From NCBI GenBank assembly GCA_028874995.1, contig JAPPGM010000053.1, forward strand, positions 1 to 35,941: a stretch of 35,941 nt of DNA, in the 5' to 3' direction. Position 1 is the stretch's first letter; each line of letters begins with the position of its first letter. Position numbers and translations under genes: made by a program. Of this stretch, positions 31,692 to 35,893 are shown piece after piece. The notes under the pieces are model-generated. The model was given only the letters and a program-made list of their open reading frames with translations. It searched no databases and was not told the origin of the DNA. This DNA comes from Gemmatimonadota bacterium. GTDB lineage: Bacteria > Gemmatimonadota > Gemmatimonadetes > Longimicrobiales > Gaopeijiaceae.

Positions 31692-33083
31692 CTACTCGAT
31701 CCTCCCCGTCACGCGCCGCGCCCCGAAGAAGATACCGAACGCCGCCCCCGCCGCCAGCAGGCCCCAGGCCGTCGGCGGCATCCAGCCACCGAATCCCGCC
31801 GAACGCACCACCAGCAGCACCACGACTCCCGCAGCCGCCGCGGCGAGCGCCTCCCCCGCCCCCGGCCGACGCGAGTGAATCCCTGCCACCACCGGCACGA
31901 AAAGGCTCACCGAAAGCAGCGAATAGAAGATCGTCAGCGCATCTACCACGCTCGGGAGCACCACCGCGAGCACGACCCCCGCCAGCCCTCCCGCCACCGC
32001 CGCCCCCCGCGCCACCTTCAGGACCTGCCCGTCCGTCGCCTTCGGCTTCACGAACCGCTTGTAGAGGTCCTTCGACAGCGAGGTGGAGAGCATGAAGAGG
32101 ATGGCGTCGGCCGAGCTGATCTCTGCCGAGAGCACCGCGGCCAGGCCCAGCAGCCCCACCCACGCCGGCACGCCCTCGGTGAGGATCACCGGGAGCGCCT
32201 TCTCCGCGTCATCCAGCCCGGGGGCCACCGCATGGGCCACCATCCCGAGCATGGGGGGCAGAATCGCGAAGAGCATGAGCGCGACCCCGCAGGCGCTCAC
32301 CCCGAGGCGCACGGTCCGCACGTCCCGCGCCCCGAAGATCTTTTGCAGTATCCCGGGCGACACAATGAAGGCCGGGGCCAGCAGGATCAGGTACATCCAC
32401 CCCGAATCCCCGTTGCTCATGAAGTCCATGCGCCCCGGGACGGTCCGCGCGCTGTCCATCACCGCCGAGAGCCCCCCCGCCCCCTCCACCGCCAGCGGCA
32501 CCGCGATGAGGAAGCCGACCATCAGCACCGCCAGCTGCACCAGGTTCACCCAGGCCGAGCTCAGCAGCCCGCCCGCGACGAAGTACACCGTCATCACCAC
32601 ACCCCCCACCACCGCCCCCAGCCAGCGCGGGGCGCCCGCCACCACCTCGAGGATCCACGCCATGGCGATCAACTGCCCCGCCAGGATCGCGAGCGTGCCG
32701 AGCCAGAGCAGCATCGCGATCGCCGCCCGCACCGAGGGCCCGTAACGATGCTCCAGGTAGTCGCCCACGGTGCTGAGCGAGTGGTCGCGCGCGATGCGCC
32801 ACATGCGCGGCCCCAACCACAGCGCCAGGATCAGCGTGCCGATCCCGGCCGATCCCACCCACCACCACGCGGCGAGCCCGTTCTCGTATCCGAGCCCGGC
32901 GGCCCCGACCGTGGAGCCCGCCCCGATGTTGGCCGCGAGCAGCGTCGCGAAGAGGAGCACGGGACCGAGCACCCGCCCCGCTACGAAGAAGTCGCTCGTC
33001 CCCGACACGCGGCGCCCTATCACGAGGCCCACCGCAGTGATGAGGACGACGTAGAGGAGGAGTACCGGGAGGGTGGCGCTCAC
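31692..33083 (-). CDS. Sodium:solute symporter (SSS family)
   Basis: Na+-coupled importer of 463 residues with about 13 membrane segments. It opens VLLLYVVLITAVGLVIGRRV and shows the family region TSDFFVAGRVLGPVLLFATLLAANIGAGS in two adjoining stretches, and the SSADAILFMLSTSLSKDLYKRF signature. The GTG start overlaps the TGA stop of the P1 peptidase gene in the four bases GTGA (33080-33083). PutP-like members carry proline, and the next gene is a hydroxyproline-type dehydratase, so an imino acid is the likely cargo. This assignment rests on context. Confidence 0.92.
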   Translation of the reverse strand: MSATLPVLLLYVVLITAVGLVIGRRVSGTSDFFVAGRVLGPVLLFATLLAANIGAGSTVGAAGLGYENGLAAWWWVGSAGIGTLILALWLGPRMWRIARDHSLSTVGDYLEHRYGPSVRAAIAMLLWLGTLAILAGQLIAMAWILEVVAGAPRWLGAVVGGVVMTVYFVAGGLLSSAWVNLVQLAVLMVGFLIAVPLAVEGAGGLSAVMDSARTVPGRMDFMSNGDSGWMYLILLAPAFIVSPGILQKIFGARDVRTVRLGVSACGVALMLFAILPPMLGMVAHAVAPGLDDAEKALPVILTEGVPAWVGLLGLAAVLSAEISSADAILFMLSTSLSKDLYKRFVKPKATDGQVLKVARGAAVAGGLAGVVLAVVLPSVVDALTIFYSLLSVSLFVPVVAGIHSRRPGAGEALAAAAAGVVVLLVVRSAGFGGWMPPTAWGLLAAGAAFGIFFGARRVTGRIE

Positions 33084-34198
33084 CGGCCGGCCCCGGGCAG
33101 GTCACGCACGGCGGGAATGCCGGGCAGGCCGTGGGCCGTCCGCACTGCGCGCAGGATCGCCTCGGCCACGACCTCGGCCGCCAGACCACCGATCCGGCCC
33201 ACATTGTAGCCTTCGGTCAGCGTCCCGGTGGCCAGGGAGAAGACGGTGTCGCCGTCGTTGGGCGTGTGGCTGGGAACGATCGCGCGAGCCAGCCCGTCGT
33301 CCGCCATCCGCGCCACCCTGGCGGCCTCCACCTTGGTGAGGCGCGCATTGGTGGCGACAATGACGATAGTGGTGTTCTCAAGCTCCGACGGAGGCGGCGC
33401 CAGACCGCGTACGAGGCGCCGGGCGTCGGCAAGGGTCCCGTCTTCGTTGCGCGCCCCCGCCACCACCTGGCCGGTTGCCGGGTCGACGATGTCGCCGACC
33501 GCGTTGACCACCGCCAGCGCGGCCACGACCAGGCCGCTCTCCAGCGTCACGGAACTCGTCCCCACACCGCCCTTCATGGAGCGGTTCATCCCGAGCATCT
33601 TCCCCACGGTGGCGCCGGCCCCCGCGCCCACGCTCCCCTCCGCGACGGGGCCGGCGGCGGCTGCGGCGGCAGCCTGGTAGCCGCACTCGGGGCCGGGCCG
33701 CACGTCGGCCACGCGGCGGTCGAAGATGATGGCACCGGAAACGATCGGGATGACGCCCACGCCGGGAATCGGGTAGCCGCGGCCCTGTTCCTCCAGGTAG
33801 CGCACGATCCCCATCCGCGCGGCGAGGCCGAAGGCGCTCCCGCCGGAACTGAAGACCGCGTCGGGGCCCTTTACGCTGTTGACGGGGTCCAGCAGGTCGG
33901 TCTCCACCGTGCCGGGAGCGCCGCCGCGCTGGTCCACCGACCCCACGGTGCCCTCGGGGGCGATCACGACGGTGCAGCCCGTGGGCTCGTCCGGGTAGGT
34001 GAAGTGGCCGACCCGGATGCCCTCGACTGCCGTGATGCCCTCCCCGGCCGCGGCGGCTTGGGCGGCGGCCTCGTCGGCGACTCCCAAGGCAAGGACGGCA
34101 GCCACGATCCGTACGGATCCAACCCACGGGCCGCGAGGGTGGTGCCCGACGGGGCCTGCTACGCGCCCGCCACCGTGTCCGAACCGTTTCACGACCAC
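33080..34198 (-). CDS. Exported P1 family peptidase (DmpA/S58-like)
   Basis: Aminopeptidase of the self-processing DmpA group, 372 residues. The N-terminal part carries a signal-like segment (VGSVRIVAAVLALGVADEAAA, cleavage near AAQ). The catalytic domain shows GITAVEGIRVGHFTY, VFSSGGSAFGLAAR, GYPIPGVGVIPIVSGAIIFD, the processing-site region MKGGVGTSSVTLESG and the closing VATNARLTKVEAARVARMADDGLARA and HTPNDGDTVFSLATG. The GTG at 34198 is chosen because GGAGG lies seven bases upstream; the frame stays open to 34513 but reads as non-protein. These peptidases release N-terminal residues from short, often non-standard, peptides. It heads the eight-gene leftward run and is coupled to the symporter gene. 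Confidence 0.88.
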   Translation of the reverse strand: MVVKRFGHGGGRVAGPVGHHPRGPWVGSVRIVAAVLALGVADEAAAQAAAAGEGITAVEGIRVGHFTYPDEPTGCTVVIAPEGTVGSVDQRGGAPGTVETDLLDPVNSVKGPDAVFSSGGSAFGLAARMGIVRYLEEQGRGYPIPGVGVIPIVSGAIIFDRRVADVRPGPECGYQAAAAAAAGPVAEGSVGAGAGATVGKMLGMNRSMKGGVGTSSVTLESGLVVAALAVVNAVGDIVDPATGQVVAGARNEDGTLADARRLVRGLAPPPSELENTTIVIVATNARLTKVEAARVARMADDGLARAIVPSHTPNDGDTVFSLATGTLTEGYNVGRIGGLAAEVVAEAILRAVRTAHGLPGIPAVRDLPGAGR

Positions 34199-34507
34199 TC
34201 GACTCCCTCCAGTAGTGGGTATCACGCCCGGATGCGGCACAAGCCGCCCGGAGCGGAAGATAATGCCATCGCGGGTTGCCAAGCGCGGTCGGCGGCCGGT
34301 CGGCGTCAACCCGGCGGAAGCCGATCGGCGACCCGAGCGGTCCTTCATGGACGCGCAGGTTCTGCGGTTTGTGGGCGTGCCCGACGGGTTGCGGAGGTGT
34401 TTCGCCCAGACGGGAGGACTCCACCGGCCGCGGATTACCCCGCGATGCAACCCTTTTCGCCTCGAGAGGGTCCAAGAAACCGAGAGCCAACGCTTCGCCG
34501 ACATTTC

Positions 34508-34523
34508 TGGCACGGAAATTGCT
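34508..34523 (+). promoter_or_regulatory. Sigma-54 (RpoN) promoter, consensus match
   Basis: TGGCACGGAAATTGCT matches the sigma-54 consensus TGGCACG-N4-TTGCW at every defined position. The invariant GG (34509-34510) and GC (34521-34522) are separated by the required 10 bases. Transcription should start near 34534, about 45 bases before the small secreted protein gene. Sigma-54 promoters need an activator ATPase, so expression of this gene is probably tightly signal-dependent. Confidence 0.8.
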
Positions 34524-34533
34524 GGAAAATGTA

Positions 34534-34560
34534 GGCATCGCCGGGATGCCCCCGGCGGGC
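34534..34560 (+). promoter_or_regulatory. Structured 5' leader with mutually exclusive hairpins
   Basis: GGCATC (34534-34539) can pair with GATGCC (34545-34550), or GCCGGG (34540-34545) can pair with CCCGGC (34551-34556); each stem has six pairs and a five-base loop, and they cannot form together. A third option is GCCC (34548-34551) with GGGC (34557-34560). The structure starts at the predicted transcript 5' end and ends before the ribosome-binding site. Confidence 0.45.
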
Positions 34561-34578
34561 AAGAACGGGAGAGGGAAA

Positions 34579-34830
34579 ATGAGAACGATACGCCTGAGAC
34601 GACGCGGAAACCTCCGGCTGACCGCGGCTGGGTTGATCCTGTCAGTGGGATTGATTCTCGGCGCCGGCGAAGTCATCGAATCCCGGACAGCGGCGCAGGA
34701 GCCGTCGTCGCCGAAGTCCGAAGAGGTGGTCGAGCCCGGCCACCTCCGCACGGTCGGAGAGTCCCCCGCTGCGACCCGGAGTGTCCACCAGAAGGGACAC
34801 CCGCGGATCGGCCGGATCATGCAAATCTAG
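34579..34830 (+). CDS. Small secreted protein, 83 residues, unknown function
   Basis: A short gene with a strong ribosome-binding site (GGGAGAGGG at 34567-34575) and an N-terminal export signal: basic MRTIRLRRRGNLR, hydrophobic LTAAGLILSVGLILGAG, then a likely cleavage after SRTAA (residue 39). That leaves a polar mature peptide of about 44 residues beginning QEPSSPKSEE and ending HPRIGRIMQI; it has no cysteines. If uncleaved it would be a single-pass membrane peptide. It lies directly downstream of a consensus sigma-54 promoter, which is the main reason to accept it as real. No family is recognised. The next gene on the same strand, 229 bases on, encodes an ABC six-transmembrane protein. Signalling, stress or antimicrobial roles are all open. 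Confidence 0.65.
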   Translation: MRTIRLRRRGNLRLTAAGLILSVGLILGAGEVIESRTAAQEPSSPKSEEVVEPGHLRTVGESPAATRSVHQKGHPRIGRIMQI

Positions 34831-35059
34831 TGACGCGTGACTGTTGGATTCGCCACGTGCGCCCCTGCCCGCACGCCGTGTACCCCGGCACCCGCCCGCC
34901 AGCGGGCATGCCCTCCCCCATCGTCGGCCTCCGTCGTCCGCACGCCAGCCCTCCCCGGACCGCTGGCCGAACGCCCCTGATCGTGCATAACCTTTAGTGG
35001 ATCAGCCGGGGCGCGACCCCGCACCGACCACAATCCGCCGGACGCTTCCCGGCCATCCC

Positions 35060-35893
35060 ATGCACGCACTCCTGAAACGCTTTGCGGGACGCTTCGTCCT
35101 TACCCTCACGCTGGTCGTACTGGAGGCGGCCGGGTGGGTCCTTTTCCCGCTCGTCATCGGCCGCGCCATCGACAGCGTCCTCGCGGACTCGACCCGTGGC
35201 CTCTACGAGTTCGCCGTGCTCGGCATCGTCACAATGGGGATCGCCATCCTGCGGCGCGTGGTGGACAGCCGGGCGTACGCGCGCATTTACGTGACCCTGG
35301 GCGAGGAAATGGCGGCGGCGGCCGCGGGGAGCAGCACATCCACCCGCACGGCGCGGCTCGGGATGCTGAGGGAGATCGTCGAGTTCTTCGAAAACTCCCT
35401 TCCCGAACTCATCAACAGCGTGATCGGCCTGGCGGGCACGGTGCTGATCCTGGCCGCACTCAACGTCCCGGTATTCCTGGGGTGCCTGGCGGTCGCCCTC
35501 GCCACCGTCGTGCTCTACGCCCTCACCGGAGGGCTGACGATGCGCTACAACCAGGGACTCAACGACGAGCACGAGCGGCAGGTCGACGCCGTCGACAGCG
35601 GCGATCCCACCCGCCTCGCCAGGCACCTCCGCGCCATGATGCGCTGGAACATCCGCCTCTCGGACCTCGAAGCGGCCAACTTCGGCATCAACTGGGTCTT
35701 CATGATCGCCCTGCTGGTCTTCGCGGTGAGCGCGGCTACAACGGAGACGGCGGAGTACGGCGCCGTCTTCGCGATCGTGATGTACGTCTTCCAGTTCGTC
35801 GAATCGATGCTGATGCTGCCGTTCTTCTACCAGCAGTGGCTGCGGCTCAGGGAGATCTCGGGGAGGTTGGCGGCGGTGGAGGGGGAGGGCTAG
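35060..35893 (+). CDS. Stand-alone ABC transporter six-transmembrane domain protein
   Basis: Membrane protein of 277 residues matching the ABC exporter transmembrane-domain type (ABC_membrane_3-like): segments near residues 10-32 (LTLTLVVLEAAGWVLFPLVI), 50-65, 120-160 (two), 212-232 and 240-262. A short Ala-rich loop (EMAAAAAGSSTSTRTARLG) and the coupling-helix region YNQGLNDEHERQVDAV are visible. No nucleotide-binding domain follows: the protein ends GEG and the stop codon lies inside the terminal repeat. The family does include natural stand-alone forms of this length, so truncation is not certain. The ATG at 35060 fits the family start. It could pair with an ATPase encoded elsewhere; its cargo is unknown. 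Confidence 0.8.
   Translation: MHALLKRFAGRFVLTLTLVVLEAAGWVLFPLVIGRAIDSVLADSTRGLYEFAVLGIVTMGIAILRRVVDSRAYARIYVTLGEEMAAAAAGSSTSTRTARLGMLREIVEFFENSLPELINSVIGLAGTVLILAALNVPVFLGCLAVALATVVLYALTGGLTMRYNQGLNDEHERQVDAVDSGDPTRLARHLRAMMRWNIRLSDLEAANFGINWVFMIALLVFAVSAATTETAEYGAVFAIVMYVFQFVESMLMLPFFYQQWLRLREISGRLAAVEGEG

Follow-up and report, generated by a model that had tools for sequence, protein, structure and literature searches.

The window analysed here comprises 35,941 nucleotides of a marine Gemmatimonadota genome, and towards its end the forward strand carries a promoter element followed by one short gene. The sigma-54 (-24/-12) element, TGGCACGGAAATTGCT, lies at 34508-34523 (+) and is followed by a tentative hairpin in the 5'-untranslated region (GCCGGG-loop-CCCGGC, predicted by folding at 34535-34560, +), a ribosome-binding site, GGGAGAGGG (34567-34575, +), and a gene at 34579-34830 (+) that translates into 83 residues and encodes a small membrane or exported protein of an orphan family. 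The ribosome-binding site had been called strong in a preliminary description of this DNA, which agrees with GGGAGAGGG ahead of the ATG at 34579 and with the purine-rich site that precedes the start in homologues. Since an in-frame upstream ATG at 34546 is missing from the relative G021, 34579 is the likely start. On the other strand lies a divergent gene for a peptidase of family S58 (DmpA-like; 33080-34198, -; PF03576, E 2.2e-46), and downstream of the short gene lies one for a six-helix ABC_membrane_3 protein without an ATPase domain (35060-35893, +; PF13748, E 6e-46). Neither a sigma-70-type promoter nor an intrinsic terminator was found in 34200-35060.

The sigma-54 element and its surroundings

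TGGCACGGAAATTGCT matches every defined base of TGGCAYR-N4-TTGCW with the GG-N10-GC spacing, as had been claimed, and neither strand of the window holds a second perfect match (0.01 expected in all), which also bears out its description as the sole such site in the gaps between genes. The distance originally given to the gene, about 45 bases, needs correction: the box ends 55 bases before the ATG, and 45 bases is what separates the ATG from the predicted transcription start near 34534. The spacing by itself is uninformative, since bare GG-N10-GC occurs 891 times in the window against 869 expected in such GC-rich DNA. At the scale of the 4.52-Mb genome the perfect 11-base pattern occurs three times, compared with once for the pattern read backwards, and summed across 23 congeneric genomes it occurs 84 times, compared with 71 for the reversed control; because these counts are so similar, the motif alone is weak evidence at genome scale. 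By these comparisons it is position and conservation, rather than the motif alone, that make the element significant.

Conservation of the element together with the small frame, which had been proposed as a check, was found for all of the homologous genes compared: GG-N10-GC is present upstream of 23/23, its first base 69-92 nt before the ATG, in related genomes that do not constitute independent samples. The perfect form TGGCAC-N5-TTGCW precedes 17 of the 23, and the elements of G010, G008, G022, G044, G047 and G034 deviate from it by one or two bases with GG-N10-GC intact. When 14 diverged representatives are aligned on the element the footprint is sharp, in that information approaches 2 bits in TGGCACG and TTGC alone and is low in the flanks. 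A second tandem copy of the 83-residue family in G017 (83580-83816 of G017:C30, L146), about 100 nt downstream of the first, has no sigma-54 site of its own.

Further upstream, the sequence GCAACC (34447-34452, +) is a tentative activator half-site. It recurs on the same strand in 20/21 homologues, at varying positions no more than 300 nt ahead of the element, and within 200 nt in 12 of 14 representatives against 1.05 expected, and it is rare before the other sigma-54 sites of the genus (2/36). GCAACC is not palindromic; on this pattern of recurrence it may be an activator-binding site. In G014, two further sigma-54 sites lack it, which fits poorly with one activator that binds GCAACC. The 5'-untranslated hairpin is predicted to fold in G000 and in six nearer relatives; its loop varies among them, and G017 has an altered stem. 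The corresponding regions of other relatives fold differently. As a separate observation, AAGATAA (window 34257-34265) is common to 6/14 representatives upstream of the element, and may serve the divergent S58 peptidase gene as its -10.

An orphan protein under purifying selection

Of the 23 genomes in the genus, 20 encode a homologue of the 83-residue protein, as does one genome in each of three sister genera (G044, G047 and G034), and the remainder of a 394-genome sample of the class gave no convincing homologue; the gene is absent from G005, G007 and G016, which are assigned to the genus. A query of a public genome collection with the single protein returned three loci, and the close relatives with named records are Gemmatimonadota MAGs, one of them labelled Longimicrobiales. 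The preliminary description recognised no family for the protein, and Pfam, NCBIfam and the PDB chains likewise yielded no profile match. The frame is under purifying selection, with pairwise dN/dS of 0.06-0.62; values for residues 1-35 range from 0 to 0.40 and those for the tail from 0.08 to 1.0. Substitution patterns of this kind indicate that the frame is a real protein in which the N-terminus and helix are constrained and the tail drifts.

Membrane anchor or released peptide

The best-conserved part of the protein is a hydrophobic helix, about residues 15-34 (encoded at 34621-34680, +), together with the Arg-rich N-terminus that precedes it. Across homologues the N-terminus carries three to seven basic and zero acidic residues before the hydrophobic stretch, whose maximum 17-residue Kyte-Doolittle mean is 1.7-2.5, so that both the positive n-region and the hydrophobic core of a Sec-exported protein are present. 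An AlphaFold model computed from four sequences, which is weak overall (mean pLDDT 58), places one helix at residues 10-36 (pLDDT about 72) followed by disorder, and the remaining residues, about 49 in number (encoded at 34681-34827, +), are poorly conserved and predicted to form a variable, disordered external tail. Of the export signal originally described, the charged N-terminus and ensuing hydrophobic stretch are thus present, whereas a signal-peptidase cleavage site is not conserved: no AxA-like site occurs in at least 3 of 19 homologues (G009, G001 and G019), and the site is doubtful in two further ones. Because of this, secretion is no likelier than retention by an uncleaved single-span anchor, and the earlier designation of the product as secreted, with a mature part of 44 residues, is unproven.

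The alternative is that signal peptidase cuts the protein, releasing a peptide of 40-45 residues that would have an extracellular role, such as signalling or antimicrobial action. An AA/AAE pair follows the hydrophobic core in most homologues, the window protein could be cleaved after TAA, and the conserved, charged leader joined to a variable tail of relaxed dN/dS also speaks for release. The stretch between the core and the putative site is nevertheless long and charged, the cleavage site varies as described above, and no partner for export or maturation is consistently linked to the gene. On balance we regard release as a serious possibility, albeit one that falls somewhat short of even chances.

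Neighbouring genes

The six-helix gene adjoins the peptide gene in the same orientation in most genomes of the genus and in the sister genus represented by G047, and the six-helix gene is likewise missing from the three members of the genus without the peptide, a pattern that would be compatible with a single operon in which the peptide is the substrate exported by the ABC_membrane_3 protein or one of its subunits. Against this, the two genes are unlinked in six genomes (G002, G013, G015, G017, G019 and G044), no sigma-54 site was found before the unlinked six-helix genes in the copies examined, and g12, a further genus in the family, carries the six-helix gene and no peptide. These distributions indicate that the six-helix gene is not an obligate partner of the peptide, and we consider joint function in one operon improbable. 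Separately, in four genomes in which the six-helix gene sits elsewhere (G002, G013, G015 and G044; loci L028, L027, L031 and L034), a convergent M20-type amidohydrolase-like gene lies opposite the peptide gene.

RpoN and candidate activators

The presence of rpoN and of an enhancer-binding protein, which had been suggested as a further check, was confirmed by a PF04552 match (E 2.6e-58) and by five genes for strong sigma-54 activators (PF00158) in the same genome. Taken together with the conserved element, they make sigma-54 control the best reading of the locus. Counts of strong activator genes range from one to seven per genome; activators were read in eleven genomes (G000, G001, G002, G005, G007, G008, G010, G014, G016, G020 and G021). 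G014, which retains both promoter and 83-residue protein, has a single detectable activator, an orthologue of a response regulator encoded on contig C26 of G000. The C26 regulator combines receiver, sigma-54 and Fis-type domains, and its gene lies between those for a histidine kinase (HAMP, HisKA, HATPase) and a probable exported coiled-coil protein. Orthologues are present in 11/11 genomes compared, at 68-78% identity where measured by tblastn. As the sole activator found in G014 and one present in all eleven genomes, the C26 kinase-NtrC pair is the likeliest activator of the small gene, an assignment by elimination in an incomplete assembly (G014 is 93% complete) to which we attach only moderate confidence. 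The regulator does not predict the peptide, since G005, G007 and G016 carry it but lack the 83-residue gene.

Interpretation of the locus

That the motif might be a chance match and the short frame non-coding or spurious, as the similarity of perfect motif counts to the reversed control at genome scale could suggest, is rejected by the comparative data with scarcely any room for doubt, in that site, spacing and coding frame are conserved in 23 genes and the frame is under purifying selection. On these computational grounds promoter and gene are near certain, and the locus as a whole (34508-34830) is probably best explained as a transcription unit that depends on sigma-54 and encodes one small protein. 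Under this model, an NtrC-type activator, most likely the C26 response regulator, would respond to a cue and open the sigma-54 polymerase bound at 34508-34523, giving rise to an mRNA that starts near 34534. The product would be an 83-residue protein specific to the lineage: its Arg-rich N-terminus would lie in the cytoplasm, a single helix would span the membrane, and a tail of about 45-50 residues would be exposed, disordered and fast-evolving. It would either stay anchored in the inner membrane, the somewhat likelier outcome, or be cut and released. Exported proteins are often targets of a sigma-54 programme in the genus, and the product is probably one output of it. The signalled response suggested in the preliminary description would follow from the biology of sigma-54. 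That description therefore stands, provided that 'secreted' is weakened to membrane-anchored or exported.

Comparison with known systems

Two known systems share features with this arrangement. In the PEP-CTERM/PrsK-PrsR system a sigma-54-type activator controls exported proteins; PEP-CTERM proteins are defined by a C-terminal PEP motif, helix and Arg cluster, whereas the 83-residue protein has an N-terminal helix only, which rules out this identity. The type IV pilin gene pilA, under PilR and sigma-54 control, likewise encodes a small protein whose N-terminus forms a hydrophobic helix; a pilin identity is ruled out since the G|FxxxE prepilin motif occurs nowhere in our alignment, and the helix here follows an Arg-rich stretch.

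In more general terms, sigma-54 (RpoN) has been seen as governing the bacterial exterior (Francke et al. 2011, PMC3162934), and the present locus shares with that scheme the canonical -24/-12 element, rpoN, activators of the NtrC family and a product at or beyond the cell membrane. It differs in that the target is an undescribed small orphan protein; what is new is the product, the regulatory arrangement itself being of a known kind. The exported products encoded behind other sigma-54 sites of the genus also agree with this role of sigma-54 (PMC3162934). Flagellar genes are reported to be lacking from marine and host-associated Gemmatimonadota MAGs, or from Palauibacterales save one species (PMC10581226, PMC10469786), and neither of these two papers mentions rpoN. 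Our literature searches found no paper pairing 'Gemmatimonadota' with 'sigma-54', and no match for sigma-54-controlled small proteins with signal peptides. It is conceivable, if rather unlikely, that sigma-54 in this lineage, with relatives reported to be flagella-less, runs small exported or membrane peptides and surface proteins, and that the window peptide and the peptide with an ATT start described below are dedicated outputs that signal to or act on host or neighbouring cells. With an undescribed protein family placed behind a promoter of a known activator class, the inducing condition can be sought, and the pair of element and gene opens a way into the sigma-54 regulon of a lineage that is largely uncultured, a regulon in which many of the predicted targets are exported.

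Other sigma-54 sites in the genus

Our genome-wide reading of sigma-54 sites was confined to perfect matches, a sizeable share of which lie inside long frames and are probably due to chance. Many of the other sites read precede exported proteins, with recurring products that include lipoproteins with a GQVSIEG-type domain start, Cys-rich small exported proteins, an outer-membrane-like protein and a peptide ending in RLRELGI. This last, a second small peptide of about 59 residues (MRKSTVNLLGAAAL...RLERLRELGI; L224 = G000:C30:22112-22288, +, also L221-L245), occurs in 23/23 genomes of the genus, recurs in many more from the same family, and has no match in Pfam or NCBIfam. A sigma-54-like element, weak in G008, lies upstream in the 25 nearest copies, 23 of which start with ATT (ATG in G008 and G047), and a strong ribosome-binding site, GGAGG(G)AG, precedes the ATT start.

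Four cassettes (L104, L077, L095 and L100, at G003:C35, G012:C318, G018:C11 and G018:C50, respectively) encode a short, receiver-less sigma-54 activator that has a GAYTGA motif and starts near RWKDEWNDLP, followed by a co-oriented perfect sigma-54 site and a small exported protein of Cys-rich or lipoprotein-like type. The lipoprotein family found behind many perfect sites, sometimes in more than one copy per genome, has the start MNRLK..LACxE...PPPPxGSIxGQVxIEGxGxDGVSVxLSNG and is represented at L046, L055, L058, L060, L063, L066, L076, L087, L089, L101, L102, L114 and others.
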